From a virus, in IMG/VR virus record IMGVR_UViG_3300009419_000074, positions 1-27,726 of that record: a stretch of 27,726 nucleotides of DNA; one strand, written 5' to 3'. The stretch's first letter is position 1; each line of letters begins with the position of its first letter. Shown piece after piece: positions 14,965 through 27,726 of this stretch. The position numbers and the translations under genes are program-made. The notes beneath the pieces are model-generated. The model was not told the origin of the DNA. It ran no database searches and saw only the letters and a program-made list of their open reading frames with translations.

Positions 14965-15459
14965 ATGAGCGACAATGGCAAAAGTAATATTGCCAAAGGT
15001 CGCACGAGCTATGATCTAGAAGTAGGCGGCATGATTGTGCCGTTCTTCAACAAAAATGTTACACCGTATCCTACTGAAGCAGGAGGTGTAAAATTTGATT
15101 TAGTTCCTGTTGAAAAACAAAAAGACGTAATGCTAAATGTTGCTAGGCTTCATGCACAGCAAGAATACGATCGTATAATGGAAATGGTAAATGTATTACA
15201 AAAACAAGCCAACCAAATTAAACGAAGATTAGAAATTACAGATGCGGTACATGCCGCCAAGTATCAATTTCAAGTGTCGCATGGTCAGATTTATTGGCTG
15301 GCGTTTGATACAAGGCATAAATGTACTATACTGGTGCGACACGGACCTAACGAATGGTCAACTGGCGCTCCAGAAAATTATGAATATATAGCCAGGGTAA
15401 AATACCTAGGCGACTATAGTTGGCAAGAAATAGACGAACAAGGAAATTATGTTACTTAG
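14965..15459 (+). CDS. DUF2452-type conserved phage protein
   Basis: 164 aa. It contains TPYPTEAGGVKFDLVPVEKQ, then MLNVARLHAQQEYDRIMEMV, a Gln-rich helix (LQKQANQIKRRLEIT), and a C-terminal part beginning AAKYQFQVSHGQIYWLAFD and ending in WSTGAPENYEYIARVKYLGD. I recognise this as the DUF2452 family found in T4-like phages and some bacteria, function unknown. It starts directly after the kinase fusion and overlaps the following gene by 11 nt. Confidence 0.8.
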   Translation: MSDNGKSNIAKGRTSYDLEVGGMIVPFFNKNVTPYPTEAGGVKFDLVPVEKQKDVMLNVARLHAQQEYDRIMEMVNVLQKQANQIKRRLEITDAVHAAKYQFQVSHGQIYWLAFDTRHKCTILVRHGPNEWSTGAPENYEYIARVKYLGDYSWQEIDEQGNYVT

Positions 15460-15736
15460 TAAACCAATCACACAAGGTTCAGTAGTTAGTTTAAAACTAG
15501 TGAACGGAGACGAAATCATTGCACGATACGACGGAGAAGATGACAGCACTATTAAAATTAATAGGCCACTGGCATTAACTATGGGCGCACAAGGACTAGG
15601 AATGATTCCTTGGTTGTTCCTTGGTGACACAGAATCCTTTACACTAAAACGCGAGCATGTGTTTGTTATGGTACCTAGCAAGAAGGATGCTGCTGATCAA
15701 TATATGCAAGGGACTACTGGTATTGCCCTAGCTTAA
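15449..15736 (+). CDS. Small beta-barrel (Sm-like) conserved phage protein
   Basis: 95 aa. TQGSVVSLKLVNGDEIIARY, then RPLALTMGAQGLGM and TLKREHVFVMVP suggest an Sm/LSm-like five-stranded barrel. Similar proteins follow the DUF2452 gene in related phages, as I recall. If the fold is right it may bind RNA or form a ring, but no RNA-binding residues can be identified. It overlaps its upstream neighbour. Confidence 0.6.
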   Translation: MLLSKPITQGSVVSLKLVNGDEIIARYDGEDDSTIKINRPLALTMGAQGLGMIPWLFLGDTESFTLKREHVFVMVPSKKDAADQYMQGTTGIALA

Positions 15737-15739
15737 ATA
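15733..15739 (+). promoter_or_regulatory. TTAAATA element
   Basis: It overlaps the stop of the upstream gene and lies 19 nt before the ATG at 15759, which also has AGGAGAT. Confidence 0.4.
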
Positions 15740-15758
15740 AAGTATTAGGAGATAGAAT

Positions 15759-16610
15759 ATGCCATATGTACCAGGCGGAACCAGTCAAGGAAATAGTGGA
15801 TTAGTAGAAGTTTCTGATGTATATCACAGTCCCAATGTGTTTGCCAACAATGTAGCAATGGCATTGTGGCAAACGCCCGGCGAAAGTGCATCATACGCAG
15901 GCGTAAGTGTATCTCCGTCAATACAAATTCCTCAGCAAATTCAAGATGCAATTAACTCAAGCTCAGCAGCCTATGTTGCGTCACAAACTGGTCAACCTAA
16001 CCAGTATTATAGTGCGACCGCTGCTGAAGGTGGTGTTAAAGGAAACTATGCAGGAACACCCGATGATGCATCAACAGGTACCGGTCTAATTGCAACAGAT
16101 GCTTCGTTTAGTGACATTGTGCCATGGATGCAAAAAACTTACGAAGAAGCACAGCGAGGCATGTGGAGAGAAACTGGTCAAGGCGGCAAACCAAGCAATC
16201 CGAATATTACAGGAATTTGGAAAACGCTTGGCATTGGTACAACAGGTGCATGGACAACTGATCAGACAGCATGGTGTATGGGATTTGTAAATTTTGGTCT
16301 TAAAGCCTCTGGTTACAAATATGTACAAACTGCAAGTGCTGCCGCAATTACACAAACTCCAGGAAGGTGGGGAGCAGTTCAGGTTCCAAAAGAACAAGCA
16401 CAACCGGGAGATATCGCATTCTGGAGTTACCGCCATGTAAACTTTGTCTACGAAAAGAAAGGTGCTGGATTCACATTCTTTGGTGGAAATCAAACACCAA
16501 AGGGCGGAAGTAATAATCCAGACGATGGCGATGCTACTATTAGTTACCCAGGAGGTACGCCTGCTTCTAATTCAAATTGGGTAAGTTGCTGGCGTCCAAG
16601 TAAGACTTGA
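15759..16610 (+). CDS. PAAR-like / cell-wall peptidase fusion (baseplate spike candidate)
   Basis: 283 aa. The N-terminal 45 residues, with GLVEVSDVYHSPNVFANNVA followed by MALW, look like PAAR-like tips that I recall in marine T4-like phage baseplates. A linker of low complexity follows. From about residue 120 the protein resembles a CHAP/NlpC-P60-like (TIGR02594) peptidoglycan amidase/peptidase: catalytic Cys in TAWCMGFVNFGL, AQPGDIAFW, catalytic His in YRHVNFVYEKKG, and FFGGNQT. It would puncture and cut the cell wall at infection, replacing the T4 gp5 lysozyme domain. A free endolysin is the alternative; the PAAR-like N-terminus argues for a virion tip. Confidence 0.7.
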   Translation: MPYVPGGTSQGNSGLVEVSDVYHSPNVFANNVAMALWQTPGESASYAGVSVSPSIQIPQQIQDAINSSSAAYVASQTGQPNQYYSATAAEGGVKGNYAGTPDDASTGTGLIATDASFSDIVPWMQKTYEEAQRGMWRETGQGGKPSNPNITGIWKTLGIGTTGAWTTDQTAWCMGFVNFGLKASGYKYVQTASAAAITQTPGRWGAVQVPKEQAQPGDIAFWSYRHVNFVYEKKGAGFTFFGGNQTPKGGSNNPDDGDATISYPGGTPASNSNWVSCWRPSKT

Positions 16611-16635
16611 CAAAACCAAAAAACGCTGTTATACT
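16607..16635 (+). promoter_or_regulatory. Consensus sigma70 promoter
   Basis: TTGACA (16607-16612), 17-nt spacer, TATACT (16630-16635) with a TG extension. It overlaps the stop of the peptidase gene and drives the gene at 16655, which has AAGGAG close to the expected start site. Likely a host-polymerase (early) promoter. Confidence 0.85.
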
Positions 16636-16654
16636 ATAAGCAAGGAGATAGCAA

Positions 16655-16966
16655 ATGGCAAATGAATTAGCAAAATACCTAAACTCTCGTCGTCGTCAAA
16701 AGGACGAGAATGCAGTCAAGAAGCAACTCAAAATTGCCAAACAGCACAGTATAGGCTTTTATGATAAAAAGGTAAAAGAGCCACATCGCATGGTAAAACA
16801 TCATGCAATGGATTGTGGTAACCCAGAATGCTATCTTTGCGGTAATCCACGTAAAACACATAAAGATAAACTTACACAACAAGAAAAACGTCTTTTCCAA
16901 GATACGGAAAAGATTACAGACAAACACAGTAACGGGTTGAAAAATGACGAAGAAGATATACTATGA
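16655..16966 (+). CDS. Small Cys-rich zinc-finger-like protein
   Basis: 103 aa, strongly basic at the N-terminus (KYLNSRRRQKDENAVKK). It has a compact Cys cluster, HHAMDCGNPECYLCGNPRK (C-x4-C-x2-C with neighbouring His), which could bind one zinc, followed by LTQQEKRLFQD. Similar CGNPxCxxCGNPR proteins occur in phages and bacteria with no known function. Its private consensus sigma70 promoter suggests early expression, perhaps as a nucleic-acid-binding host-takeover factor; this is inference. Confidence 0.7.
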   Translation: MANELAKYLNSRRRQKDENAVKKQLKIAKQHSIGFYDKKVKEPHRMVKHHAMDCGNPECYLCGNPRKTHKDKLTQQEKRLFQDTEKITDKHSNGLKNDEEDIL

Positions 16967-17417
16967 AAAAATTGGTAGAAAATATGTTCCAGTCGCTGAG
17001 TATGACAGCACCTATTTGGATAGCTTTCCAAAAGGTAATCACTTGGTTATGTGTTATCCCGGAGGCTCTAGTCGTCGGTTCAATATTGATCCTAACTATG
17101 CGGCTATGATTGCCGCTGGACGAGTTGCCGAGGATGTTATTAGTAAGGCAGTGGTTAAAGCTAGCGAAATGCGTCCACACAATAAGCCTATTACTGAAAA
17201 GCAAAAGAAAGCATGGGAAGCTCTAGCTAAAGCAATGGGAGACGACCGATACTATGTCGAAATTCCCAGTGCAAGGGAAATCGCAGAAGCGGGTGTAAAA
17301 GCTATGCAAGAAGAAGCTGATAAACTCATGTTGCATCCTGCGGTTAGAAGATCTTACGAAAACTTCCAGATTGTCTGCAAACTTGTCAACGAAACTGATA
17401 CTCAAGGCGTTAAATAA
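16944..17417 (+). CDS. Conserved phage hypothetical protein, 157 aa
   Basis: It starts inside the end of the zinc-finger-like gene (23-nt overlap). The protein reads MTKKIYYEKIGRKYVPVAEY, then HLVMCYPGGSSRRFNIDPNY and AAMIAAGRVAEDVISKAVVK, and ends in a helical region. The pattern of a short beta domain plus long helices resembles phage proteins I recall, of unknown role. It probably shares the sigma70 promoter at 16607. Confidence 0.65.
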   Translation: MTKKIYYEKIGRKYVPVAEYDSTYLDSFPKGNHLVMCYPGGSSRRFNIDPNYAAMIAAGRVAEDVISKAVVKASEMRPHNKPITEKQKKAWEALAKAMGDDRYYVEIPSAREIAEAGVKAMQEEADKLMLHPAVRRSYENFQIVCKLVNETDTQGVK

Positions 17418-17528
17418 TATATGCCGGAAGGGGTAAACCTGCGTAGCAAGTTGCCAAGGTGCAAGACCTTGTAAGTTAGGCGGAGACTCCACAAGCCCTT
17501 CGGATTCCGTCATTTTTTGGAGATTGCT
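17418..17528 (+). other. Structured leader RNA candidate
   Basis: Between two genes, CCGGAAGGG (17424-17432) can pair with CCCTTCGG (17496-17503) with one bulged G. This closes an element of about 80 nt that contains CAAGGT/ACCTTG (17455-17460 with 17466-17471, 5-nt loop), GCAAGTTGC and GGAGACTCC. A T-run (ATTTTTTGG) follows and includes the GGAG ribosome binding site of the His-rich gene. This layout fits a cis-regulatory leader or an independent small RNA; I do not recognise a known riboswitch consensus. Confidence 0.5.
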
Positions 17529-17846
17529 ATGAAAAAAGTTTTAGCCGTATTATTGTTAACATTGTCCACAGTACCAGCAATGGCTCAACATCATCATGGA
17601 CATTGGCACGGACACGGACATCGCGTACATGGTGGCGGCTGGAATTGGGTAGTTCCTGCTATCATTGGTGGTGCAGTAGTATATGGCGCAACTCGACCCG
17701 ATCCTGTTATTGTACAACAACCTCCTATTATCGTACAACAGCCACCAATTTATCAATATCCACAAATTGTACAAAATTGTACACCTTGGACAGAAACACA
17801 AAATTCAGACGGTACAATTACACGTACACGCACATGTAATCAGTAA
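17529..17846 (+). CDS. Secreted His-rich protein
   Basis: The start is the ATG at 17529 with GGAG 6 nt upstream, giving 105 aa. The signal peptide is MKKVLAVLLLTLSTVPAMAQ with an A-x-A cleavage site. The mature N-terminus is HHHGHWHGHGHRVHGGG, a likely metal-binding stretch. A Gly/Ala hydrophobic segment, a Pro-Gln-Val repeat (IVQQPPIIVQQPP) and a C-terminal CTPWTETQNSDGTITRTRTC follow. Similar C-termini occur in small secreted bacterial and phage proteins. It probably ends in the periplasm or envelope. It lies directly after a structured leader, so metal- or stress-dependent control is possible. Confidence 0.75.
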   Translation: MKKVLAVLLLTLSTVPAMAQHHHGHWHGHGHRVHGGGWNWVVPAIIGGAVVYGATRPDPVIVQQPPIIVQQPPIYQYPQIVQNCTPWTETQNSDGTITRTRTCNQ

Positions 17847-17872
17847 TTGCAATCTTTGATGATGTTGGTATG

Positions 17873-17879
17873 CTAAATA
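17873..17879 (+). promoter_or_regulatory. CTAAATA late-promoter-like element
   Basis: It lies 22 nt upstream of the adhesin-like gene at 17902 in a short intergenic gap. Confidence 0.4.
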
Positions 17880-17901
17880 TTGATATTAGCAGAGAACCAA
17901 T

Positions 17902-18480
17902 ATGCCAACACCATCATCGGGCCAGATTTCCTTTCAAAATCTACAAAATACATTCGGAACAGGCAGTCCTGTATCCTTTAGCCAATTATATAAGGGCGGA
18001 ACCTATGTTCCTAACATTACCCCTAATAATGCTATTCCTACGGCTAATGCCATTGCCATAGATGACTTCTATAGTACATGGGGTAGAAAGAGTCTAACAT
18101 TTACTGTAACAATAGGCTCTATTGCAGGAAAAGGAAAGAAGGGCAAAAAAGGATCGTTATACGGATTTGGTACAGGGTTTGGCTCTATCAGTGCTAGCAC
18201 ATTTTTAACACCGAACGGCCCAATGACTGTACGAGGACTATATTATAGTACAGGCGATGCTAGATGGCATTTAAAGTTGTCACATACAAGTTCTGCTCCT
18301 GCAGATACTGATTTATCTTTTAGACAAGTGTCTGTGTCGGGTTACAATATCAACGGTGTTAGATCTGCTAGAACAAGTACTAGCACTTCAGGAAACTCAC
18401 GCAAATGGGCATGGAATGTAACAAACCCTGCTCACCCAATATCAGGTACAATTACCTGCACAATTCAATACTACGGTTAA
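17902..18480 (+). CDS. Virion adhesin/tail-fibre-type protein
   Basis: 192 aa. The N-terminus has PSSGQISFQNLQNTFGTGSP, then VSFSQLYKGGTYVPN, a virion-attachment signature I recall from many marine T4-like phage fibre and baseplate proteins. Residues 70-190 are a beta-rich Gly/Ser/Thr domain with an unusual Lys-Gly run, GKGKKGKKGSLYGFGTGFGS. It probably forms a small fibre or receptor-binding knob. The following gene is 9 nt downstream and probably in the same late operon. Confidence 0.65.
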   Translation: MPTPSSGQISFQNLQNTFGTGSPVSFSQLYKGGTYVPNITPNNAIPTANAIAIDDFYSTWGRKSLTFTVTIGSIAGKGKKGKKGSLYGFGTGFGSISASTFLTPNGPMTVRGLYYSTGDARWHLKLSHTSSAPADTDLSFRQVSVSGYNINGVRSARTSTSTSGNSRKWAWNVTNPAHPISGTITCTIQYYG

Positions 18481-18489
18481 AGGAAAACA

Positions 18490-18984
18490 ATGATTCCATT
18501 TAAGATGCAAATTCTCAGTTACAATAACGCTGGATCGTATTCAGTAGAATATATTCCAGAGAATGAAAAATGCACTCCTATAAAATTAGATATTCGTATC
18601 GATACAGCAACAACAAGTAATCCTGATGAAGTTGTTGAACTTTTAAAACAATCATCGCCTCAGGATTTTTGGGTTAGCGAAATTGGCACTACTGATGTAG
18701 ATCACGAAGCCTTAAAAAAATTAGTGAATACTGTTCATCGCGTAACCGAAGCAGGAAATTCATTTGTGTCTACAGGATACAGTACTCCCGATCGCGGAGT
18801 TAGGAGAGCTCCACGAGCCCAATCTCCTGTACCTGCCGCATTAATTGCTCAAGGAGTTACGGCACCAGGTGTTGAAGGATTCACCCCTAACCAACAAGTT
18901 GCGGGTAGGGACGAACAGATGATCATTAAATTAAAAGTTATTATACAACAAGTTATTCAAGAAATGGCGGAAGGTACAGTATGA
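18490..18984 (+). CDS. Hypothetical phage protein, 164 aa
   Basis: An acidic beta-like N-terminal domain (MQILSYNNAGSYSVEYIPEN), a disordered Pro/Arg/Gln-rich centre and a C-terminal helix with DEQMIIKLKVIIQQVIQEMA. AAAGGA lies upstream. It overlaps the next gene by 4 nt. Its location between an adhesin-like and another beta-rich gene suggests a virion component; the family is not recognised. Confidence 0.55.
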   Translation: MIPFKMQILSYNNAGSYSVEYIPENEKCTPIKLDIRIDTATTSNPDEVVELLKQSSPQDFWVSEIGTTDVDHEALKKLVNTVHRVTEAGNSFVSTGYSTPDRGVRRAPRAQSPVPAALIAQGVTAPGVEGFTPNQQVAGRDEQMIIKLKVIIQQVIQEMAEGTV

Positions 18985-19484
18985 AATTTACTCCACATGC
19001 AGCATTTGGAACAGTTGTTATCTTGGCTCAGGCCAACGCAGGCGATACTCGCGTTGTTCCTATTGCAGAAAACGGATTGGTTAAAACTGGGTGGTATTAT
19101 TATACACACGGATGTGCAAAAGTTCATGTTATCGAAACAGGCGAACAACTATCAGATAGGAATCCAGGTTGGCTGAATTCAGAACATGCTGGAGCCAGTG
19201 CTTCCACAGGCGGCAATTTACAATTAAATTTTCCAGTACCAACTGAGTGGTTATGTATTCCTCACCAGTATAACAAAGATGGTCTTCCAACATTAGAAAG
19301 TTTTGTTGTAGAGTCCGGAACAAGTAGAGTAATTGAAAATAATTCTAATATTTTTCTTGTTAGAGGCACATTAACTATTAAAGGTAAAGACTTTGTAGGA
19401 CCAACACAAATTCGTGTTAGATCTGGAGATACCGAAGCTACAGTCAAAGGTAGTCAAAGCTGTTATGGAGTAAAATTTTTATGA
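18981..19484 (+). CDS. Hypothetical beta-rich phage protein, 167 aa
   Basis: It starts MKFTPHAAFGTVVILAQANA and continues with short beta-like segments (NGLVKTGWYYYTHGCAKVHV), a central loop region with several Asn/Ser, and a C-terminal block (LVRGTLTIKGKDFVG). No known motif. ATGA overlaps link it to both neighbours. It may be structural, but it is also directly coupled to the desaturase downstream, so it could belong to that accessory block. Confidence 0.5.
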   Translation: MKFTPHAAFGTVVILAQANAGDTRVVPIAENGLVKTGWYYYTHGCAKVHVIETGEQLSDRNPGWLNSEHAGASASTGGNLQLNFPVPTEWLCIPHQYNKDGLPTLESFVVESGTSRVIENNSNIFLVRGTLTIKGKDFVGPTQIRVRSGDTEATVKGSQSCYGVKFL

Positions 19485-20230
19485 AAACACACGCATGGCA
19501 ACGTTCTATTGGTGCATGGTTATTTTTTCCTGTACTATATTTTACATTAACATCTACCGCTAGTTTACTGTGGTTGATTCCTGCGTTTGTATTATATCTG
19601 ACAATTGCATTAACTGTAACAGTCGGATATCATAGATTATTTGTACATAACTCATTTGTATGTTCTAGATTCTGGCATTGGTTTTTTGGACTAGTAGGAT
19701 GTATTAGTTTAAACTCTGCTCCTGTTCATTGGAGCAGTGTACATATAACACATCATAAATTTGCTGATACCGAAGACGACCCTTACGATCCTGACTGGAG
19801 ACACTTTTTTAGATTTAAAGATCGAGAAAATGTCAAGGCAACTAAAAATGAATTAAGAATGATGCGTGACAAAATGCATCTTTTCTTCATTGAACATTCT
19901 TTTACCCTTAGTGTAGCTTACGGCTTATTAATGTTAGCTTTTGGAGTTAATGCATTCTTGTATTTGTATGCATTACCAACTACACTATATCTAGTAACCA
20001 GTGGTTTACATACAATTTTTGCACACGGTAATCCTACAAACATTGAAGGCAGGACCGCAGCCAGAAATATATGGCTATTGGAATTTATTATTCCAATGGG
20101 CGGTGAGTGGATTCATAAAGAACATCACGACAAGCCTAAACTAAACAATTGGCACACCAAACCGCACTATTTTGATTTAGGCGGAATTATGATAGGGTTA
20201 ATAGAAAAACATGATCAATCAACTGCCTGA
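19481..20230 (+). CDS. Membrane fatty-acid desaturase
   Basis: 249 aa integral membrane di-iron desaturase. The three histidine boxes are in the expected order: HRLFVH near residue 51, HITHHKF near 90 and HKEHHD near 213. Hydrophobic hairpins lie before the first box and between the second and third. The order resembles delta-9 acyl-CoA/acyl-lipid desaturases (DesC/SCD type), although the protein is somewhat shorter. It would introduce a double bond into membrane acyl chains at the inner membrane and make the host membrane more fluid. The ATGA overlap couples it to the upstream gene. Redox partners are not visible nearby. Confidence 0.9.
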   Translation: MKTHAWQRSIGAWLFFPVLYFTLTSTASLLWLIPAFVLYLTIALTVTVGYHRLFVHNSFVCSRFWHWFFGLVGCISLNSAPVHWSSVHITHHKFADTEDDPYDPDWRHFFRFKDRENVKATKNELRMMRDKMHLFFIEHSFTLSVAYGLLMLAFGVNAFLYLYALPTTLYLVTSGLHTIFAHGNPTNIEGRTAARNIWLLEFIIPMGGEWIHKEHHDKPKLNNWHTKPHYFDLGGIMIGLIEKHDQSTA

Positions 20231-20399
20231 CCTAGAAGCAGAAGATAAACGATATAATTTACATGTAGGAGCAGATGCTCCTACAACTTATAATATTACA
20301 TTTGTTTATCCTGACTGGACTCCTCCGCCGCCACCTCCTAAGTTGTTAGAGCCGGCGGTATTTAAATCCCACTTAGATATATTAGGTATTAAATTTTGA
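20211..20399 (+). CDS. Small Pro-rich protein, 62 aa
   Basis: It overlaps the end of the desaturase by 20 nt and its stop overlaps a TTG start (TTGA). The sequence is acidic at first (DLEAEDKRYNLHVG), then TFVYPDWTPPPPPPKLLEP with six consecutive Pro, and ends FKSHLDILGIKF. No family recognised. The tight overlaps make it credible, and the polyproline run could be a protein-interaction or hydroxylation site. Confidence 0.55.
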   Translation: MINQLPDLEAEDKRYNLHVGADAPTTYNITFVYPDWTPPPPPPKLLEPAVFKSHLDILGIKF

Positions 20400-21346
20400 G
20401 AAAATATTATCACCATGCAGGCATGACCCCGATGATGACGTCGCCTGACCACATGTATAATGTATTTGATCGTACAAGATCAATGATTGATATTAAAGAC
20501 ATTGAAGTGATCACTCCAATAGGTAGTGCAGTTGAACCTTTGAGTATTGAAGAACTTTGTCACAATAGTGCTAGTAACATTATTACTCAAGCAGGTTCTA
20601 AGAAGTTAGTAGTAACATGGAGCGGAGGAATTGATTCTACTCTGGTGTTAAGTGAGCTTCTAAAAATTGCTCCTAAAGAACAGATTGTTGTAATGATGGA
20701 TAACAACTCTATACGTGAGTATCCAGAGTTCTACAAAAAATATATAGAAGGGCAGTTAGAAACTAGAGAAATGAGTTTTTACACTGACGATCCTTTGCGT
20801 GTAGCACTGAAAGATGGTGTAGTTGTTACAGGACACTTAATGGATCCTGTGTTTGGTGCAAACATTTATCAAGCGTTACCTGAAGATAAATTAAAACAAA
20901 GTATTCCAGAATTTCTAAAAAACCTTAACGGATTTTCTCAAGAAAGATATAAAAAATCAATTAATGCATGTCCTAGGCAGCTAGTTGATGTTAAAGATTT
21001 GTTCTGGTGGTTAGACTACACATTGAACTACCAAAGCGAACAACTTATGTGGTTGTTAGAAATTGAAGAAATGATCTTAGACAAAAACCTATTTCACTTT
21101 GGTGCAGGTAAGGATTGGAATAACTATGCTGTATCAACTCCCGCAGAAGTAAAATGGCAAGGTTACGATTTTAATTACTACAAGATGGAAATTAAAAAGC
21201 ATATTCAGAAGTTTACAGGCGATGAAAACTACACAAAGAATAAGATAAAAATGCCATCATGGAGACATTATAGGACAGATGAACAGAGGTTCAGAGACAA
21301 AGCAGTTTGGATAACTACAGACTGGAAACGCGGTTGGTTGAGTTAA
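20396..21346 (+). CDS. PP-loop ATP-pyrophosphatase (adenine nucleotide alpha-hydrolase fold)
   Basis: 316 aa from a TTG that overlaps the previous stop, an arrangement like the ATGA couplings nearby; an internal ATG at 20423 is the alternative. The PP-loop SGGIDST lies near residue 77 in KLVVTWSGGIDSTLVLSELL. This is the signature of N-type ATP pyrophosphatases such as asparagine synthetase, QueC or ThiI, which activate a carbonyl as an adenylate. There is no glutaminase domain and no obvious zinc-binding Cys cluster, so it is neither a full asparagine synthetase nor a typical QueC. The substrate is unknown. Confidence 0.8.
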   Translation: MRKYYHHAGMTPMMTSPDHMYNVFDRTRSMIDIKDIEVITPIGSAVEPLSIEELCHNSASNIITQAGSKKLVVTWSGGIDSTLVLSELLKIAPKEQIVVMMDNNSIREYPEFYKKYIEGQLETREMSFYTDDPLRVALKDGVVVTGHLMDPVFGANIYQALPEDKLKQSIPEFLKNLNGFSQERYKKSINACPRQLVDVKDLFWWLDYTLNYQSEQLMWLLEIEEMILDKNLFHFGAGKDWNNYAVSTPAEVKWQGYDFNYYKMEIKKHIQKFTGDENYTKNKIKMPSWRHYRTDEQRFRDKAVWITTDWKRGWLS

Positions 21347-21359
21347 TTGAGAGATAAAA

Positions 21360-21818
21360 ATGGCATTAAAATTACAATGTGAACCAGTACTACTAGTTAA
21401 ACCAGAAATGGAACCTATGCTCATCGATCACTACGAAGAGTTGACGATGCACAAGGATAAAATTAAGTTAGCACCCGACTGGGAACTATACGATAAAATG
21501 GAAAAAGCAGGTAACTTCTATCTTCTTACCGCTCGTCTTGAAGAACAGGATAACATGCTGGTGGGATATAGTGCATGGTTTGTGAAGCCACACATTCATT
21601 ATAAAGAAACTATTGTTGCGGCCAACGATGTATTGTTCCTACACAAAGATTATCGTCAGGGAATGACAGGTATCAAACTGATTAAATATTCAGAGCAGGA
21701 AATGCGTAAGTATGCTCATAAGATTACATGGCACGTTAAAGGCGAGCCAGATTTTCGCCCTATCTTGCATAGGTTAGGATACGTTGATGAAGATGTTATC
21801 GTAGGAAAAATGTTTTAA
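21360..21818 (+). CDS. GNAT-type acetyltransferase
   Basis: 152 aa. The beta-alpha order of GNAT enzymes is visible: NFYLLTARLEEQDNMLVGYS (strands 3-4), NDVLFLHKDYRQGMTGIKL with the acetyl-CoA pyrophosphate loop-like RQGMTG (Q/R-x-x-G-x-G/A), and ILHRLGYVDEDVIVGKMF at the end. The HIHYKET segment is common in phage-type GNATs. The acceptor is unknown; phage GNATs may modify host proteins or small molecules. It lies between a PP-loop enzyme and three oxygenase-like genes. Confidence 0.78.
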   Translation: MALKLQCEPVLLVKPEMEPMLIDHYEELTMHKDKIKLAPDWELYDKMEKAGNFYLLTARLEEQDNMLVGYSAWFVKPHIHYKETIVAANDVLFLHKDYRQGMTGIKLIKYSEQEMRKYAHKITWHVKGEPDFRPILHRLGYVDEDVIVGKMF

Positions 21819-21819
21819 T

Positions 21820-22410
21820 ATGACATTATTAAATAATTGCTATTATAGACTAACACTTGATGTTAGCAATGCAATTAGGAAAGACTATGTTTTTCCAACT
21901 CCTACCAGCGATTACGGAATTTGGAATCCGCCAGCTGAGTCTATCTTTAATAAAGAATGGCTGGATCATATGAAATCTATAGGAATTCCTTTGTATAATG
22001 CAATGCTATTTTACAGAGGAGCTGGTGCAAGTACTAAAGAAACTCACGTGGACATTAGTAAAACTAATCCACTACGTCTTACTAACTACGGTATCAATTG
22101 GTGCATTGGTGGCAAGGGCAGCGAAATGGCATGGTACCAATATCCTCAAGAATTAAAAGACGAAGATGTAATTTGGACCAAAGCTAAAACTCCTTATATT
22201 GCAATGAGATATGATCAGGTAACAGAAATCGAAAGATGCCATATAGGCAACGAAGTTACATTAGTTAAAACAGATTTGCCTCATGCAATTTTAATGAAGG
22301 ACGATCCTCGTTGGTGCATTTCTGCAAGAACAACTTTTTTAGACAATCATCAGTGGGATGAAATTTTAACATTGTTGCGCTCTAAAAATTTATTGGTTGA
22401 ACGAGAATGA
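21820..22410 (+). CDS. Double-stranded beta-helix Fe(II)/2-oxoglutarate-type oxygenase, copy 1
   Basis: 196 aa. An HxD pair (about residues 76-78) lies in KETHVDISK, a second His at about residue 155 in TDLPHAIL, and an Arg shortly after in RWCISAR. This is the facial triad and 2-oxoglutarate-binding Arg layout of Fe(II)-dependent dioxygenases. It is clearly paralogous to the next gene: both share a YxLxxDxSNA start, an FGxW/YGIW motif, EWLxxM, FYR and RWCISAR. The substrate is unknown. The next ATG overlaps its stop by 4 nt. Confidence 0.72.
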   Translation: MTLLNNCYYRLTLDVSNAIRKDYVFPTPTSDYGIWNPPAESIFNKEWLDHMKSIGIPLYNAMLFYRGAGASTKETHVDISKTNPLRLTNYGINWCIGGKGSEMAWYQYPQELKDEDVIWTKAKTPYIAMRYDQVTEIERCHIGNEVTLVKTDLPHAILMKDDPRWCISARTTFLDNHQWDEILTLLRSKNLLVERE

Positions 22411-23000
22411 TAGAACCGTGTTGGTATAAACTTAAAATTGATTGCAGTAATGCACTAAGATCAGACTGGAAATTTCCTGATATAACAGGAAAAGAGTTTG
22501 GGGTGTGGAACGATACCGCTAAAAACATGTTCGATCCTGAATGGCTACAGAAAATGCACGACTCCGGAATCTACGTAGCTGATGCTTTAATATTTTATAG
22601 ATCCCCTGGACACAATACAAATAATGCACACATCGATATACACAAAGAGCATCCTAAGAAAATTTCTACATTTGGGTTGAACATGGTATTCGACGGTAAC
22701 GACAGTACAATGACTTGGTACAAGATGCCTGAAATTAAAGGACCTCCTTCTCGAGGTGCTGCTGGAACAGTTTATTACAATTGGCCAATCAGTCAGTTAG
22801 AAGAAATTGACAGACATACATTAGGCCCAGAACTAACATTAGTTCGTGTAGGAGTACCACATACTGTCATCATGGGTGATAAACCTAGATGGTGTATCAG
22901 TGCTAGAGCAGCACTAATAGAACAGATGTACTGGAAAGATGTGGTAAAGTATATGTATAATAAAGATTTACTGGTTGAAAGAAATGTTCAAAAAAATTAA
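22407..23000 (+). CDS. Double-stranded beta-helix Fe(II)/2-oxoglutarate-type oxygenase, copy 2
   Basis: 197 aa. Its HxD lies in NAHIDIHK (about residues 75-77), the distal His in GVPHTVIM, and the Arg in RWCISARAAL. Tandem paralogue of the previous gene, with the same start pattern (CWYKLKIDCSNALRSDWKFP) and end (DLLVER). Such close pairs usually arise by duplication and divergence, perhaps to act on two related substrates. It overlaps its neighbours on both sides, so all are probably translated from one message. Confidence 0.72.
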   Translation: MIEPCWYKLKIDCSNALRSDWKFPDITGKEFGVWNDTAKNMFDPEWLQKMHDSGIYVADALIFYRSPGHNTNNAHIDIHKEHPKKISTFGLNMVFDGNDSTMTWYKMPEIKGPPSRGAAGTVYYNWPISQLEEIDRHTLGPELTLVRVGVPHTVIMGDKPRWCISARAALIEQMYWKDVVKYMYNKDLLVERNVQKN

Positions 23001-23514
23001 TTTTAAGTTAGACAACTTAGACTTTGAAAGATTAAAGGGGTCTGTGGTTACTTCTTATGGAAGGGCTCCTCGCCCTGTGTTAACCTATTACAGATTAAGA
23101 GATCCAGCATATCTAAAAAGTCTTATGCCTGCGGAAATGTTTGCTGGTATGCCTCCGTTACAGGTGCAACTTGCAGAGATTGTAGGTTCTGGACATTTAC
23201 TACCACATATCGATCACAATATCAGTGCATGTGCAAACTACTATGTAGAGACTAACGGATCTACAACTTATTTTTATAACAAGAAAGAAGACGGACAAGG
23301 GTTTGTATACCCCGGTCGTGCCGCCGCAAATATATTTGCATTAGACCAAGTAGATTGTGTAGACCAATTTGTTGCAGAACAAAACGATATGTACTTATTA
23401 AACGTAAGTAAAATTCACTCTGTTGACAGTCCAAATCCCGGAATTCGTAAATTCATTAGTTGGCAATGGGTAGATGTTCCATTTGAGCGTATCCGTGATT
23501 CGTTGACAACGTAA
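22984..23514 (+). CDS. Double-stranded beta-helix oxygenase-like protein, copy 3
   Basis: 176 aa using the ATG at 22984; an in-frame TTG at 22975 is possible. HxD in LLPHIDHN (about residues 75-77), distal His in VSKIHSVDSPN and Arg in GIRKFISWQW give the same triad. It is more distant from copies 1 and 2, with a central CANYYVETNGSTTYFYN like the lid region of prolyl-hydroxylase or AspH-type enzymes. The end of the gene contains the -35 box of the tmRNA promoter. Confidence 0.68.
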   Translation: MFKKINFKLDNLDFERLKGSVVTSYGRAPRPVLTYYRLRDPAYLKSLMPAEMFAGMPPLQVQLAEIVGSGHLLPHIDHNISACANYYVETNGSTTYFYNKKEDGQGFVYPGRAAANIFALDQVDCVDQFVAEQNDMYLLNVSKIHSVDSPNPGIRKFISWQWVDVPFERIRDSLTT

Positions 23515-23531
23515 TATAAATATTATATAAT
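23503..23531 (+). promoter_or_regulatory. Perfect sigma70 promoter of the tmRNA locus, with overlapping TATAAATA
   Basis: TTGACA (23503-23508), 17-nt spacer, TATAAT (23526-23531): both boxes and the spacing equal the consensus. The start site is expected near 23538, just before the acceptor piece. TATAAATA (23515-23522) lies inside the spacer, so a late promoter is superimposed. Confidence 0.9.
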
Positions 23532-23537
23532 GTAAGT

Positions 23538-23602
23538 TAAGACTGTATGAAGTAGACAGAAAAGGATTCAAGACGCGGGGGCAGTGCCCGCCAGGTCCAC
23601 CA
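23538..23602 (+). ncRNA. ssrA: tmRNA acceptor piece (3' half) of a circularly permuted two-piece tmRNA
   Basis: The sequence ends in a tRNA-like half. T-stem GCGGG (23575-23579) pairs with CCCGC (23587-23591) around the 7-nt loop GGCAGTG. Acceptor strand CAGGTCC (23592-23598), discriminator A and an encoded CCA (23600-23602) follow. Apart from the loop it closely follows the E. coli tmRNA 3' end. CAGGTCC pairs over all 7 bases with GGGCCTG at 23823-23829, including the G3-U70 wobble that directs alanylation. CTGTAT (23543-23548) pairs with GTACAG (23853-23858), the P2 helix holding the two pieces together. The 5' end is set from the promoter and is approximate. Confidence 0.93.
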
Positions 23603-23611
23603 TAAGGATTT

Positions 23612-23821
23612 ATGATAGACAGTAAATCAAGAAGCATTGTTAAAACACTAAGTTGGAGAGTAACAGGATCAGGAGCAACATTCTTGATAGTTTGGTTATT
23701 CACTGGAAGTTTAGTTTTAGCAGGGCCGATTGCTATTACTCAATTAATATCAAATACTATCTTGTATTATATACATGAACGTGTTTGGAATAATATTAAA
23801 TGGGGTCGTGATTCTTTATGA
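23612..23821 (+). CDS. DUF2061 small membrane protein encoded inside the tmRNA intervening segment
   Basis: 69 aa with the DUF2061 pattern: SRSIVKTLSWRVTGSGATF, a hydrophobic hairpin (LIVWLFTGSLVLAGPIAI) and a second hydrophobic part ending in YYIHERVWNNIKWG. The family is an uncharacterised two-helix inner-membrane protein. AAGGA lies 5 nt before the ATG. The gene starts 10 nt after the CCA of the acceptor piece and its stop ends 1 nt before the first mature base of the coding piece, so it fills the whole segment that tmRNA processing should discard. Ribosome access before processing would decide whether it is made. Confidence 0.85.
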   Translation: MIDSKSRSIVKTLSWRVTGSGATFLIVWLFTGSLVLAGPIAITQLISNTILYYIHERVWNNIKWGRDSL

Positions 23822-23822
23822 T

Positions 23823-23996
23823 GGGCCTGACACAGGATCGATTGGGTCAAGAGTACAGAAATGGACAGTCCGGCAAGGTAGAAGCCGTTAGGGTTGGGGA
23901 TTCCCGGCCGAAGACACAAAAAACGTAAATGCAAACGACGAACAGTTCGCTTTAGCCGCCTAAACTCGGCTTAGGGTAGGAAATACCTCGTAACAG
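23823..23996 (+). ncRNA. ssrA: tmRNA coding piece (5' half) with tag ANDEQFALAA
   Basis: It begins GGGCCTGACACAGGATCGAT, a close relative of the E. coli tmRNA 5' end; GGGCCTG pairs with the acceptor piece. A GC-rich pseudoknot-like stretch (CCGGC...GCCG, GGGATTCCC) precedes the A-rich run. The tag reading frame is 23931-23963: GCA resume codon, then residues ANDEQFALAA and TAA. The ending ALAA is the ClpXP/ClpAP degron of nearly all tmRNA tags. GGTAGGAAATACC after the stop can form a hairpin near the 3' end. The exact 3' end before the terminator is uncertain. Confidence 0.95.
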
Positions 23997-24004
23997 AAAC
24001 CACC

Positions 24005-24030
24005 AAAAGGCAACTTCGGTTGCCTTTTTT
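24005..24030 (+). terminator. Rho-independent terminator of the tmRNA transcript
   Basis: AAAAGGCAAC (24005-24014), TTCG, GTTGCCTTTT (24019-24028), then further T. Strong and directly after the tmRNA coding piece. Confidence 0.92.
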
Positions 24031-24031
24031 C

Positions 24032-24060
24032 TTGACCTCTGACAAACAGGTATATATACT
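24032..24060 (+). promoter_or_regulatory. Consensus sigma70 promoter of the outer-membrane protein gene
   Basis: TTGACC (24032-24037), 17-nt spacer, TATACT (24055-24060). It begins 2 nt after the T-run of the tmRNA terminator, so this gene is an independent unit read by host polymerase. Confidence 0.87.
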
Positions 24061-24103
24061 AGTGTAATGACACGCAAATGTCATTCTTTTAAAGGAAATA
24101 TAA

Positions 24104-24655
24104 ATGAAGAAAATTTTTGCAATCTTGGCTTTGGCCATTTCTGGTACTGCTTTCGCAGCCGACTACGTATCTGTTGATGTTGACGCTGTTCGCGGTGTTA
24201 ATGGCGCAAAAGATAGCACAGCACAGTATGTTCGTGCCGGCAAGCAATTAGGTGTTTACCAATTAGGTCTACAATCTCGTACTGCTACTGTTGGCGGTGG
24301 TGGCATGTTGAACAGTCTAGAGGCTACAGTTGCTAACACCAAAGTTGGCTTTGCTGGAATCACACCATTTGTTGGTGTTGGTCGCGACAATGGCTTCAAC
24401 GGTGCTAAAGGTGCCGCATACACATACGGTCTAGTTGGCGCAACTACCGGTATGAAGGTTGGTCCAGGCTTTGCATTAGCAGGTGTTAAGACTCGCGTTG
24501 GTAGTGACGAAGCCACTCTCACTAAGCAAACAGTTGCATTTGCGACATACAGCATTCCTCTTGCTAAGAGTGTTTCTGTTAACTTGAATGCAAGTAAGTC
24601 TTATCAAGACATCAAGGAAAATGCACTAGGTCTTGGCCTAGCATTTAATTTCTAA
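24104..24655 (+). CDS. Phage-encoded outer-membrane beta-barrel protein
   Basis: 183 aa. Signal peptide MKKIFAILALAISGTAFA ends with an A-x-A site. The mature part has alternating hydrophobic/polar residues with many Gly and Thr, the pattern of a small 8-10-strand barrel: YVRAGKQLGVYQLGLQSRT, then AYTYGLVGATTGMKVGPGFA and KQTVAFATYSIPL. The C-terminal strand ALGLGLAFNF ends in Phe, the usual recognition signal for the BAM complex. Its own consensus promoter, AAAGGA site and terminator isolate it from the phage operons. It could alter host surface, permeability or superinfection; which one is unknown. Confidence 0.82.
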   Translation: MKKIFAILALAISGTAFAADYVSVDVDAVRGVNGAKDSTAQYVRAGKQLGVYQLGLQSRTATVGGGGMLNSLEATVANTKVGFAGITPFVGVGRDNGFNGAKGAAYTYGLVGATTGMKVGPGFALAGVKTRVGSDEATLTKQTVAFATYSIPLAKSVSVNLNASKSYQDIKENALGLGLAFNF

Positions 24656-24671
24656 TTTTATTAGATAGAAC

Positions 24672-24695
24672 AAACCCGCTTCGGCGGGTTTTCTT
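24672..24695 (+). terminator. Rho-independent terminator
   Basis: AAACCCGC (24672-24679), TTCG, GCGGGTTT (24684-24691) followed by TCTTTT. It closes the outer-membrane protein unit. Confidence 0.92.
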
Positions 24696-24741
24696 TTGAC
24701 CTAAGATTGTAACAAAACTGTAACAGATTGTACGATAAATA
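24696..24741 (+). promoter_or_regulatory. PHO-box-like direct repeat with downstream GATAAATA
   Basis: TTGTAAC (24707-24713), AAAA, CTGTAAC (24718-24724) are two 7-bp repeats separated by 4 bp, the architecture of a PhoB site (consensus CTGTCAT-N4-CTGTCAT); they match it at 4 and 5 of 7 positions. About 10 bp downstream is GATAAATA (24734-24741), at the distance where PhoB-dependent -10 boxes sit. TTGACC (24696-24701) lies just upstream. The ATG follows the GATAAATA by 5 nt with no Shine-Dalgarno. Confidence 0.6.
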
Positions 24742-24746
24742 ATGGT

Positions 24747-25634
24747 ATGACTACCAAGACGTACCGTTCTATTTTTATTTCAGATGTACATTTAGGCACA
24801 AAGGATAGTCAAGCGGATCGTCTAAATAATTTTCTTAAGCACAATACTTGCGATACCCTATATCTAGTAGGTGATATCATTGATGCTTGGCGTATACAAC
24901 AAAACAAGTGGCGTTGGAAGCAGAGTCATACCAACGTAGTCCGTCGTGTACTAGGGCATGCCAAACGCGGCACCAGGGTAGTATACGTTGCGGGCAACCA
25001 TGATGAATTTTTAAGACCAATGATACCATATGGTTTTAGTTTTGGTCTAGTAGAGATACACAATCAAATAGAACACATAGGTGCTGATGGTAAGCACTAT
25101 CTGGTCACACATGGTGACTTGTTTGATGGAATAACTCGTCTAGCACCGTGGATAGCATTCTTAGGAGATAAAGCATATGATTTCGTTCTTTCGCTTAATA
25201 GCAAATTTAATTGGATACGTCATCGTTTTGGTTTTGGGTACTTTAGTCTTAGTCAATATCTCAAACACCGAGTAAAAAAAGCTGTAGACTTTATGTTCAA
25301 GTTTGAACAGAACCTAGCAGGCTACTGTAAGAAGCGCGGCTTTGATGGCGTTATTTGCGGACATATACATCACGCCGAAATCAAAGAAATAGATGGTGTT
25401 GTCTATATGAATGACGGTGATTGGGTCGAATCCTGTACTGCCTTGGTAGAGCATTGGGACGGCCGTTGGGAAATTGTAACATGGACTAAGGAGAAGGACG
25501 ATGTGGCTAATGATATTGATAGCAGTTCACCTAACGGATCCTCAGGATCAACCAGGAAGAGTAGAACTACAGTTCGCGGATCAAAAAACTTGCGAGCAAG
25601 TCCTAAGCACAATGAAGTGGAACCTAAAGTTTAA
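24747..25634 (+). CDS. plcP: PlcP-type metallophosphoesterase (membrane phospholipase C, lipid remodelling)
   Basis: 295 aa. All calcineurin-type metal motifs are present in order: DVH (13-15), GDIID (42-46), GNHDE (83-87), THGD, and GHIHH. The protein resembles both LpxH-like UDP-diacylglucosamine hydrolases and PlcP. Conserved PlcP-type stretches (YLVGDIIDAWRI, LVTHGDLFDGITRLAPW, YLKHRVKKAVDFM, VYMNDGDWVESCTALVEH) and the adjacent Agt-type gene favour PlcP. PlcP removes the phosphohead group of phospholipids to give diacylglycerol during phosphate starvation. The last 40 residues are a Ser/Arg-rich tail. LpxH activity cannot be excluded by eye. It is followed after 21 nt by the glycosyltransferase. 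Confidence 0.85.
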   Translation: MTTKTYRSIFISDVHLGTKDSQADRLNNFLKHNTCDTLYLVGDIIDAWRIQQNKWRWKQSHTNVVRRVLGHAKRGTRVVYVAGNHDEFLRPMIPYGFSFGLVEIHNQIEHIGADGKHYLVTHGDLFDGITRLAPWIAFLGDKAYDFVLSLNSKFNWIRHRFGFGYFSLSQYLKHRVKKAVDFMFKFEQNLAGYCKKRGFDGVICGHIHHAEIKEIDGVVYMNDGDWVESCTALVEHWDGRWEIVTWTKEKDDVANDIDSSSPNGSSGSTRKSRTTVRGSKNLRASPKHNEVEPKV

Positions 25635-25655
25635 GAGTTTTAAGGTAGTAGGCGA

Positions 25656-26660
25656 ATGCAGAAAACAATCTTAATTATAACCGATAACTTACCGGAGCAA
25701 ATCAATGGCGTTGTCACAACATACAAAAATATCGAAGCGTGTGCGGTTCTGGACAACTATCGCGTTGTTTACATTACTCCCGGGGACTTCCGCTACTTTG
25801 ATTGCCCTCGCTACAACGAAGTCAAGATTGCCTATCCAAGGGAGATGGGCGAGAAGATTAAGGAGATCAGTCCTGATTATATCCATATCGCCACAGAGGG
25901 TCCTCTTGGTCTGTGGGCTAGAAAATATCTTTCAAAACATAATATTAGGCACAATACTGCTTACCATACTAAATTTCCTGAAGGGCTAAAAAAACTATTT
26001 GGAATACCAGAGAAGTTTACCTGGGCGTTTGTAAGATGGTTTCACAAACACAGTGGAAAAGTGCTAACAACCACAGACAGCATGGTTGCTGAATTAAAAG
26101 CGCATGGATTTGGCGGAGAAGTTATTCCATGGACACGTGGCGTTGATCGAGATATATTTCACCCTGCACACAGAGGCGAAACAGTAGCGGGTAGACCTAT
26201 ACTGTTGTGTGTTAGTCGTGTCAGTAAAGAAAAGAACTTAGAAGATTTCTTTGAGCTAGACTACCCAGGTGCTACAAAGATTATGGTAGGCGATGGTCCT
26301 ATGTTGGAAACATATAAAAAGAAATATCCAGATATTATCTTTACAGGTTTTAAAACAGGCGAAAGTCTAGCTCACTACTATGCCAATGCCGATGTATTTG
26401 TATTTCCTTCAAGATGGGAAACATTTGGTATTGTAATGATTGAAGCGATGGCCTGCGGAACTCCTGTAGCAGCTTATCCTTGTCAGGGCCCCGAAGATGT
26501 CATTGACGAAGGTGTCACTGGTTGTTTAAATGACGATCTAAAACAAGCTGTTAAAGATGCACTAATGTTAAATAGACAGCATGTGTGGCAAAGCAGTCGA
26601 CGGTGGTCATGGGAAAGAGCCTGGCAAATTTTTAGAGACAATTTAGTAGAAAAATATTAA
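25656..26660 (+). CDS. agt: GT4 glycosyltransferase of the Agt/SqdX type (glycolipid synthase)
   Basis: 334 aa. The N-terminal Rossmann half has DNLPEQINGVVTTYKNIEAC and the conserved IHIATEGPLGLWARKYL followed by TAYHTKFPEGLKKLF. The C-terminal half has VSRVSKEKNLEDFFELDYPG, VGDGPMLETY, then YANADVFVFPSRWETFG and the E-x7-E catalytic motif ETFGIVMIE. This pattern is found in glycosyltransferases that glycosylate diacylglycerol (Agt, SqdX). It would convert the diacylglycerol made by PlcP into glycolipid, completing phospholipid replacement. The linked sugar is not readable. AAGG lies upstream; a stem-loop and a terminator follow. Confidence 0.85.
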   Translation: MQKTILIITDNLPEQINGVVTTYKNIEACAVLDNYRVVYITPGDFRYFDCPRYNEVKIAYPREMGEKIKEISPDYIHIATEGPLGLWARKYLSKHNIRHNTAYHTKFPEGLKKLFGIPEKFTWAFVRWFHKHSGKVLTTTDSMVAELKAHGFGGEVIPWTRGVDRDIFHPAHRGETVAGRPILLCVSRVSKEKNLEDFFELDYPGATKIMVGDGPMLETYKKKYPDIIFTGFKTGESLAHYYANADVFVFPSRWETFGIVMIEAMACGTPVAAYPCQGPEDVIDEGVTGCLNDDLKQAVKDALMLNRQHVWQSSRRWSWERAWQIFRDNLVEKY

Positions 26661-26661
26661 T

Positions 26662-26727
26662 CGCCTGCTGACGGCGTACAATGTGATAAGTAGTCAGCAG
26701 TAAACCCACTACGGTGGGTTTTCTTTT
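26662..26727 (+). terminator. Stem-loop pair ending in a rho-independent terminator
   Basis: CTGCTGAC (26665-26672) pairs with GTCAGCAG (26693-26700), loop 20 nt. Directly after it AAACCCAC (26702-26709), TACG, GTGGGTTT (26714-26721) and TCTTTT form a standard terminator. CGCC (26662-26665) can instead pair with GGCG (26673-26676), so the first hairpin has an alternative fold. Confidence 0.85.
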
Positions 26728-26728
26728 G

Positions 26729-26736
26729 ATTAAATA
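26729..26736 (+). promoter_or_regulatory. ATTAAATA late-promoter-like element
   Basis: It lies immediately after the terminator T-run and 4 nt before the ATG at 26741. There is no Shine-Dalgarno, as at 547, 2005 and 24747. Confidence 0.45.
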
Positions 26737-26740
26737 CAGC

Positions 26741-27292
26741 ATGAAAAAATATAGTAGATTAATTGATCTTACCTGTTGGCAAACATTAATCGATAGGTAT
26801 TTGCATTTACAAGTTAATATAGGAAATAAGAGATCTGAACATTTAGATGAAGCAGAAATGAAATACGTTGAATCTATCGTTGCAAATGATTTAACTAGAT
26901 TTTCCGGAAAAACCCATTCTTTAAAAAGTGCAATGATATTTTACTCCACTGCCAACAGTGAAAGAGGATTACATGTGGATTATTTTAAAGTTTGGAATAA
27001 CTATCCAACTTGGGCATTGAACATACCTATATTAAATGGTAATAATTGCGAAATGCAGTGGTACGGTGGAGATTTTGACAAGGAACTAAAAACTACAGCA
27101 AACGGTAGCGAGTCCTGGCATCTCACATGGAAATCTACGCCAGTGTTGTTAGAGTCAGAGTTGATCAATCAACCAACTGTGGTTTATGTGGATATTCCCC
27201 ATAATGTGATCAATCATGACAATCTTCCAAGAATGCTACTTACCCTTAGATTCAATCCAACCTTGTTGCCTATAACTACTACTAACGAGTAA
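26741..27292 (+). CDS. Double-stranded beta-helix oxygenase-like protein, copy 4
   Basis: 183 aa from the ATG at 26741; an upstream GTG frame would run through the terminator and is rejected. HxD in GLHVDYFK (about residues 78-80), a distal His in DIPHNVIN and an Arg in RMLLTLRF give the Fe(II)/2-oxoglutarate layout. Shared features with copies 1 and 2 include a FYS/FYR strand before HxD and an aromatic WYGGDF strand after it. It lies away from the other three, directly after the plcP-agt unit, so its partner or substrate may differ. Confidence 0.65.
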   Translation: MKKYSRLIDLTCWQTLIDRYLHLQVNIGNKRSEHLDEAEMKYVESIVANDLTRFSGKTHSLKSAMIFYSTANSERGLHVDYFKVWNNYPTWALNIPILNGNNCEMQWYGGDFDKELKTTANGSESWHLTWKSTPVLLESELINQPTVVYVDIPHNVINHDNLPRMLLTLRFNPTLLPITTTNE

Positions 27293-27301
27293 TACCTATT
27301 G

Positions 27302-27381
27302 TTGACATTAATAAAATCAATTGAAAATCGTTGATTTGCAGATTAAATAAATGTACAATAAACATATACAGAATATTTCTG
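27302..27381 (+). promoter_or_regulatory. Promoter/operator region of the peroxiredoxin gene
   Basis: Two overlapping sigma70-like promoters can be read: TTGAAA (27321-27326)-N17-TAAATA (27344-27349) and TTGATT (27331-27336)-N17-TACAAT (27354-27359). CAGAA-TAT-TTCTG (27369-27381) is a palindrome downstream of the -10 boxes, where a repressor could act. AGGAG at 27403 serves the ATG at 27414. Confidence 0.55.
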
Positions 27382-27413
27382 TAACATTTCATTTTAACAC
27401 ACAGGAGAAAAAT

Positions 27414-27726
27414 ATGAAAACAGTTGGCGATAAATTATCCCCATTCGCAATTACAGGCGTTAAGCCAGGACAACCAAACGATGCTTTTTTTGAAATTACA
27501 GACAAGAGCTTCGAAGGCAAGTGGAAAGTAATTGTTTACTATCCAAAAGACTTTACATTCGTATGTCCAACTGAGATTGTAGCATACGACAAGTTGGCAT
27601 CAGACTTTGCCGACCGTGATGCCATCCTATTGACAGGTAGCACAGACAATGAGTTCTGCAAAGTTAGCTGGCAAAATGCTCACGCTGATTTGAAGAAAAT
27701 CACTCACACACAATTTGCTGATACAC
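27414..27726 (+). CDS. 2-Cys peroxiredoxin (AhpC type), 3' truncated by the window
   Basis: 104 residues are visible. MKTVGDKLSPFAITGVKPG and KWKVIVYYPKDFTFVCPTE, with the peroxidatic Cys in FVCPTEI preceded by the conserved Pro/Thr residues, are the AhpC/TSA signature. DNEFCKVSWQNAH follows; the resolving Cys lies beyond the window. It reduces hydroperoxides in the cytoplasm. On a phage it would protect the infected cell or the ribonucleotide reductase from oxidative damage (inference). It has a private promoter region and a strong AGGAG. Confidence 0.9.
   Translation, partial: MKTVGDKLSPFAITGVKPGQPNDAFFEITDKSFEGKWKVIVYYPKDFTFVCPTEIVAYDKLASDFADRDAILLTGSTDNEFCKVSWQNAHADLKKITHTQFADT

Follow-up and report, generated by a model that had tools for sequence, protein, structure and literature searches.

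A PHO-box-like repeat joined to a putative T4-type late promoter upstream of plcP in uncultured T4-like phages

The plcP locus and the conservation of its promoter repeat

The window, i.e. the whole stretch of DNA analyzed here, comprises 27.7 kb and is a fragment of a virus record in IMG/VR. It carries a gene for a plcP-like metallophosphoesterase, which is followed by an Agt-like glycosyltransferase gene and preceded by a tandem repeat and a TAAATA hexamer (Table 1). The repeat TTGTAACAAAACTGTAAC (24707-24724; TTGTAAC and CTGTAAC separated by AAAA) is the sole match without mismatches in the window and consists of two direct half-sites 11 bp apart, which is the 7+4+7 architecture of a PHO box. 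In these respects an earlier note on this DNA, which had described such a repeat behind a terminator and directly upstream of plcP, was accurate: the terminator hairpin (24673-24690) and its T-run are located 5' of the repeat, and the plcP start codon follows at 24747.

Table 1. Features of the plcP promoter region and operon in the window
Feature	Position	Strand	Basis or remark
Intrinsic terminator of upstream gene, AACCCGC-TTCG-GCGGGTT + T-rich tail	24673..24697	+	sequence reading
PHO half-site 1, TTGTAAC	24707..24713	+	sequence; kept in relatives
PHO half-site 2, CTGTAAC, 11 bp after half-site 1	24718..24724	+	sequence; kept in relatives
11-bp spacer, box to TAAATA	24725..24735	+	in relatives 11, 21 or 22 bp (one/two helical turns)
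TAAATA, putative T4-type late promoter core (-11 to -6, T4 numbering)	24736..24741	+	enrichment; late genes and gp55 in relatives
Predicted +1, A of plcP ATG	24747	+	T4 numbering (PMC2988020); leaderless mRNA predicted
plcP-like metallophosphoesterase, 295 aa	24747..25634	+	Pfam Metallophos 3e-11
GT4 glycosyltransferase, Agt-like, 334 aa	25656..26660	+	Pfam Glyco_trans_1_4 1e-24

The PlcP of the window is approximately 50-58% identical to its nearest bacterial relatives. It scores below the NCBIfam cutoffs for LpxH, and its calcineurin-like domain together with the plcP-agt gene order marks it as a predicted phospholipase C. The Agt shares about 41% identity with the nearest bacterial Agt; best NCBIfam matches of this GT4 protein include lipid glycosyltransferases, below cutoff. 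The gene order is that of bacterial plcP-agt lipid-remodelling operons, and 10 of 15 loci in bacteria have an Agt homolog at a distance of about 0.75-0.9 kb from the plcP start, on its downstream side. Many phages differ from the bacterial operons by harboring a GT2 glycosyltransferase in the place of agt: the gene after plcP encodes a GT2 enzyme in 56 and a GT4 enzyme in 20 of 81 loci, at the same spacing (L003:6910-7629 compared to 25656-26660 in the window). This alternation suggests that the lipid head-group enzyme was exchanged. The window additionally contains a fatty acid desaturase-like gene (19481-20230), a possible further phage membrane-lipid gene. A 5-aminolevulinate synthase-like gene, judged by eye, is positioned about 3.5 kb 5' of plcP in L010 and was seen in 10 related loci.

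A megablast search with the right part of the window (15001-27726) against phage records gave no match. Searching viral contigs with PlcP yielded 598 confirmed stretches, of which the best 80 were retained, and conservation was counted over 64 distinct plcP upstream regions, the window included. Lack of the repeat upstream of plcP in close relatives had been named beforehand as grounds for abandoning the proposal, which stood: two half-sites are located directly 5' of plcP in 49 of the 64 regions, all of which were retrieved through plcP similarity and may share part of the promoter by ancestry. The pattern TGTMAY-N5-TGTMAY is retained while the upstream regions vary in gene content and sequence, and farther upstream the boxed loci contain unrelated DNA and genes. 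In four further regions (L004, L026, L039 and L054) plcP itself is unboxed and lies behind pstS, whose promoter carries the box. L064 harbors box and TAAATA 120 nt 5' of plcP but is missing pstS, as would result from a pstS deletion that spared the promoter and created a natural promoter fusion. Ten regions have no recognisable box by the strict criterion, including L072 with a degenerate box (one half-site mismatch) before a pstS-plcP operon. Within the 49 boxes the fifth base of the 7-bp half-sites covaries (AA in 41, CC in 7, mixed in 1), as expected if one protein reads both half-sites.

Loose matches with up to three mismatches occur six times in the window compared to 3.9 expected, and such a match by itself would mean little there. 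With a matrix derived from the relatives, the window being left out, the site scored 24.5, compared to 12.4 for the next-best site of the window and a maximum of 19.8 in 40 shuffled windows. A 12-position score was applied to 65 distinct upstream regions, one more than in the conservation count; 38 of these reached 12, whereas in dinucleotide-shuffled upstream regions 11 was reached in 0.8% and 12 never.

The composite pattern TGTMAY-N5-TGTMAY-N(11-22)-TAAATA was matched 55 times in 50 whole related records, compared to no match for the reversed pattern. Although gaps of 11-22 bp were allowed, solely 11, 21 or 22 bp were found between box and TAAATA and never 12-20 bp. Gaps of one or two helical turns indicate a protein on one DNA face beside RNA polymerase. 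The module is not confined to plcP. It is located 5' of all 13 phage pstS genes (12 exact, that of L072 degenerate), so that the box precedes phosphate genes in an activating position at pstS as well as, in the 49 direct cases, at plcP. It also stands 5' of 11 out of 11 genes of an uncharacterised family starting with MRxEDLAARL, and two further matches (L204, L206) precede other genes. Members of this MRxEDLAARLVAVEAKL family (e.g. L001:7999-8649, L203:1582, L068:7700) are rich in Ala, Val and Glu and comprise about 215 aa. Pfam, PHROG and NCBIfam gave no match for them, and the family is a candidate for a new viral Pho-regulon gene.

The TAAATA element and the predicted transcript start

Among hexamers upstream of genes in the related set, TAAATA shows the strongest enrichment. 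The promoters containing it fall into 58 with a box score of at least 11 and 185 with a score of 10 or less, with almost none between. Their flanks are variable and alike at boxed and unboxed promoters, and the 'GA' preceding TAAATA in the window is not conserved among relatives. Genes with TAAATA upstream in a 332-kb relative include those for baseplate wedge, sheath, portal, tube, endolysin and further structural families, whereas controls contain few structural families; counted approximately, among the top 25 families listed, there are at least 11 behind TAAATA versus 2 of 69 in the control (p ~0.017). Replication genes, e.g. for DNA polymerase and ribonucleotide reductase, are also found behind TAAATA.

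A gene for gp55 ('sigma factor for late transcription', phrog_12791, ~1e-70) was detected in nine of 32 related records, among them all seven of at least 245 kb. The other 23, mostly fragments, gave no gp55 match, and neither did the 27.7-kb window fragment. The gene adjoins gp47 where the locus was read, and the closest homologs among isolates are those of PA5oct-like jumbo phages. The Mendera protein as query gave weak matches, the PHROG model clear ones. The published late promoter motifs are NATAAATA in S-PM2 and TATAAATA in T4 (PMC2984593). The earlier note had taken GATAAATA downstream of the repeat for a -10-like element. TAAATA does follow there after 11 bp, but judging from its enrichment, the late genes behind it, the gp55 of the relatives and the motifs of S-PM2 and T4, GATAAATA represents a late promoter of T4 type that belongs to the phage itself and no sigma-70 -10 element. 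The PHO-box module is an addition to this putative late promoter.

The T4 late promoter 8-mer extends from -13 to -6 (PMC2988020). Thus the first base of TAAATA is at -11 and the last base of the box at -23. The 7+4+7 repeat of the E. coli phoA and pstS promoters is positioned 10 bp from a -10 element that starts at -12, and also ends at -23. Aligned in this way, the PHO box of the phage late promoter occupies the same place relative to its predicted start as the box of these two E. coli genes does; the E. coli PhoB promoters differ in having a sigma-70 -10 element where the phage has the late-promoter hexamer.

If +1 is placed 11 nt downstream of the first T in TAAATA, all 45 distinct plcP promoters have the ATG at -1 to +3, and no Shine-Dalgarno sequence is possible. 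As +1 coincides with the ATG, a leaderless plcP mRNA is predicted. The pstS and MRxEDLA genes mostly possess leaders of 20-60 nt with Shine-Dalgarno-like sequences. At 187 unboxed late promoters the ATG is located at -2 to +3 in 62 cases, at 4-6 in none and further on in 121, with a start codon peak at the predicted +1. In five environmental relatives TAAATA-N5-ATG occurs 104 times, compared to 28 times for the reversed control, an enrichment of about 3.7-fold that was not found in PA5oct or Hallingskeid. Leaderless late mRNAs may be common in these T4-like phages. By inspection, leaderless candidates in the window are located at 547, 24747 and 26741.

The box could also be part of an ordinary PhoB promoter that is used early by host sigma-70, with TAAATA serving as a poor -10 element or as a second, late start. 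PhoB activation through sigma-70 with the box 10 bp from the -10 element is known, pstS of cyanophages is subject to control by the PhoB of the host (PMC10976474), and early and late promoters overlap in S-PM2 and RB49 (PMC2984593). However, TAAATA matches the -10 sequence TATAAT poorly, its flanks do not distinguish boxed from unboxed late promoters, and the spacers of the relatives contain no separate conserved TATAAT-like element. Early use by sigma-70 is thus considered unlikely.

The regulator of the box and the proposed mechanism

No protein with an OmpR-type DNA-binding domain (PF00486, Trans_reg_C) was detected in 32 related phage records. This indicates that the regulator is probably that of the host, and a phage-encoded PhoB, which none of these 32 records contains, was set aside. 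The regulator is most likely PhoB or a close equivalent, since its putative targets are pstS and plcP, the repeat has an 11-bp period and several relatives carry textbook TGTCAY boxes, such as the triple box TGTCAT-N5-TGTCAT-N5-TGTCAC in L042/L043. Of the PhoB box proposed in the earlier note, the 7+4+7 architecture stood and was joined by the box at phage pstS, whereas the half-sites deviate from the PHO consensus half-site CTGTCAT: both are TGTAAC in the window, and TGTAAY predominates among relatives. A generic bacterial PhoB matrix failed to single out the window site, which ranked fourth in the window with 8.4 bits (shuffled maxima average 12.7) and counts against a plain TGTCAT box; this matrix consists of 35 pstS boxes found with a TGTCAT query and is biased against A. 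An A at the fifth half-site base is permitted in E. coli, where PhoB sites bound in vivo by ChIP-seq include TGTAATAGTTCTGTAAC (yibT) and TGTAACCCGTATGTAAC (mglB) (PMC10294691) and the phoE upstream region contains CTGTAATATATCTTTAAC. In the published PhoB consensus the second half-site may likewise have C or A (PMC3465305).

Small-genome pstS upstream regions were searched for TGTAAY boxes, and none was convincing. In the earlier note plcP had been described as PhoB-controlled in bacteria, but a clear box is not visible in the nearest bacterial relatives. The phage PstS is 74-75% identical to that of two Pseudomonadota genomes and about 60% to those of small genomes with 42-44% GC; a host assignment on this basis was set aside, as pstS is a transferable gene. 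The top match of the bacterial PhoB matrix in the window is an imperfect inverted repeat, ATGACAC-GCAA-ATGTCAT (24067-24084), 5' of the open reading frame at 24104. It is probably a different operator.

Binding to tandem repeats at approximately 10-11 bp is common among OmpR-family proteins. Another member of this family (CpxR-, OmpR- or CtrA-like) or an unrecognised phage activator might bind the box, the link to phosphate being incidental; the predominance of TGTAAY half-sites and the low score of the window site with the TGTCAT-type matrix would fit. However, the targets include pstS and plcP, TGTCAY boxes occupy the same position in relatives, TGTAAY-N5-TGTAAY is bound in vivo by E. coli PhoB (PMC10294691) and the 32 phage records lack the OmpR-type domain, which makes a regulator unrelated to phosphate rather improbable.

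The combined reading, a PHO-box module for host PhoB or a PhoB-like OmpR-family regulator fused at fixed helical phase to a T4-type late promoter, is given a probability of roughly 0.68. Phosphate-uptake and lipid-recycling genes would probably be switched on late in infection and solely when the host is short of phosphate. Under phosphate starvation, phosphorylated host PhoB would bind the box at -40 to -23, and bound PhoB would recruit or stabilise the late holoenzyme of host core RNA polymerase and gp55. Strong late transcription of plcP and agt for membrane-lipid recycling and of pstS for phosphate uptake would then require phosphate shortage. As the box overlaps the region of T4 gp33 crosslinks (-39, -36/-35), PhoB could act in place of gp33 and the clamp or assist them.

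E. coli PhoB contacts region 4 of sigma-70, which gp55 does not possess. The coupling of PhoB to the late holoenzyme is thus not trivial; gp55 resembles sigma domain 2 only, and the flap site is taken by gp33 (PMC2988020, PMC7892883). Whether a two-component response regulator of the host acts directly at a viral late promoter whose sigma factor lacks region 4, as an AND gate of late phase and phosphate starvation with a leaderless lipid-remodelling mRNA as output, in phages with a viral Pho regulon of three gene families (plcP-glycosyltransferase, pstS and the uncharacterised family), is judged an evenly balanced question. The suggestion in the earlier note that the phage hands the operon to the host regulator needs modification: a host regulator is likely, but the phage late sigma factor would be retained and host input added to it.

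A protein bound to the box, which overlaps the T4 gp33 crosslinks (PMC2988020), could instead exclude gp33 and the clamp, so that the box would be repressive or architectural and PhoB or another protein would block the late promoter. The strict one-face phasing at one or two turns and a geometry as in activating PhoB promoters argue against this, and repression of phosphate-uptake genes in starvation makes little sense; a blocking role is very improbable. A chance origin of the repeat can be dismissed, since it is kept in dozens of distinct relatives and before three gene families with no match in reversed controls, even though a loose match is expected about four times in the window alone.

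Comparison with known systems and implications

Host PhoB control of phage genes is known in cyanophages, by EMSA in S-PM2d and for pstS in P-SSM2 (PMC10976474). These phages share with the group described here that genes including pstS carry boxes for the host phosphate-stress regulator. However, their boxes are of the PyTTAA type, and the composite promoter found here is one fixed arrangement for three gene families, whereas cyanophage pstS has 'no single regulatory solution' and no common layout (PMC3037559). The window repeat, with TGTAAC half-sites, does not follow the cyanophage-type Pho box CTTA-N7-CTTA. The composite was found in none of 14 isolated phages, namely eight pstS-bearing cyanophages, S-SRM01, Mosig, Mendera, PA5oct, X1 and Hallingskeid. 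In Pelagibacter phage Mosig (L099:2860-2990) plcP is located 3' of TTTAACAAAAACTTAAC, with TAAATA 11 nt before the ATG, and a gene for a putative phosphate ABC transporter is oriented divergently from it. This upstream region may be a marine variant in which half-sites and spacing differ.

The promoters resemble T4 late promoters, which depend on gp55, gp33 and gp45, in the TAAATA core, the gp55-type sigma gene beside gp47 in larger relatives and the late genes downstream. T4 late promoters have no conserved -35 sequence (PMC2988020), whereas here the PHO box occupies -40 to -23. PhoB working with an alternative sigma factor has a parallel in sigma-VreI of Pseudomonas aeruginosa (PMC4971064), although sigma-VreI promoters keep -35 and -10 elements and phage gp55 lacks sigma region 4. 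The literature search found no paper describing a phage plcP with a PHO box.

In the literature found, demonstrated host PhoB control of phage genes concerns marine cyanophages. The composite described here occurs in uncultured T4-like phages, some of them jumbo, from a different, apparently widespread and abundant clade, in which a strict composite promoter would couple host nutrient sensing to the phage late clock. This raises the biochemical question of how PhoB could activate a late holoenzyme without sigma region 4. If the proposed mechanism is true, these phages would strip phosphate from phospholipids for progeny DNA in starved hosts only.
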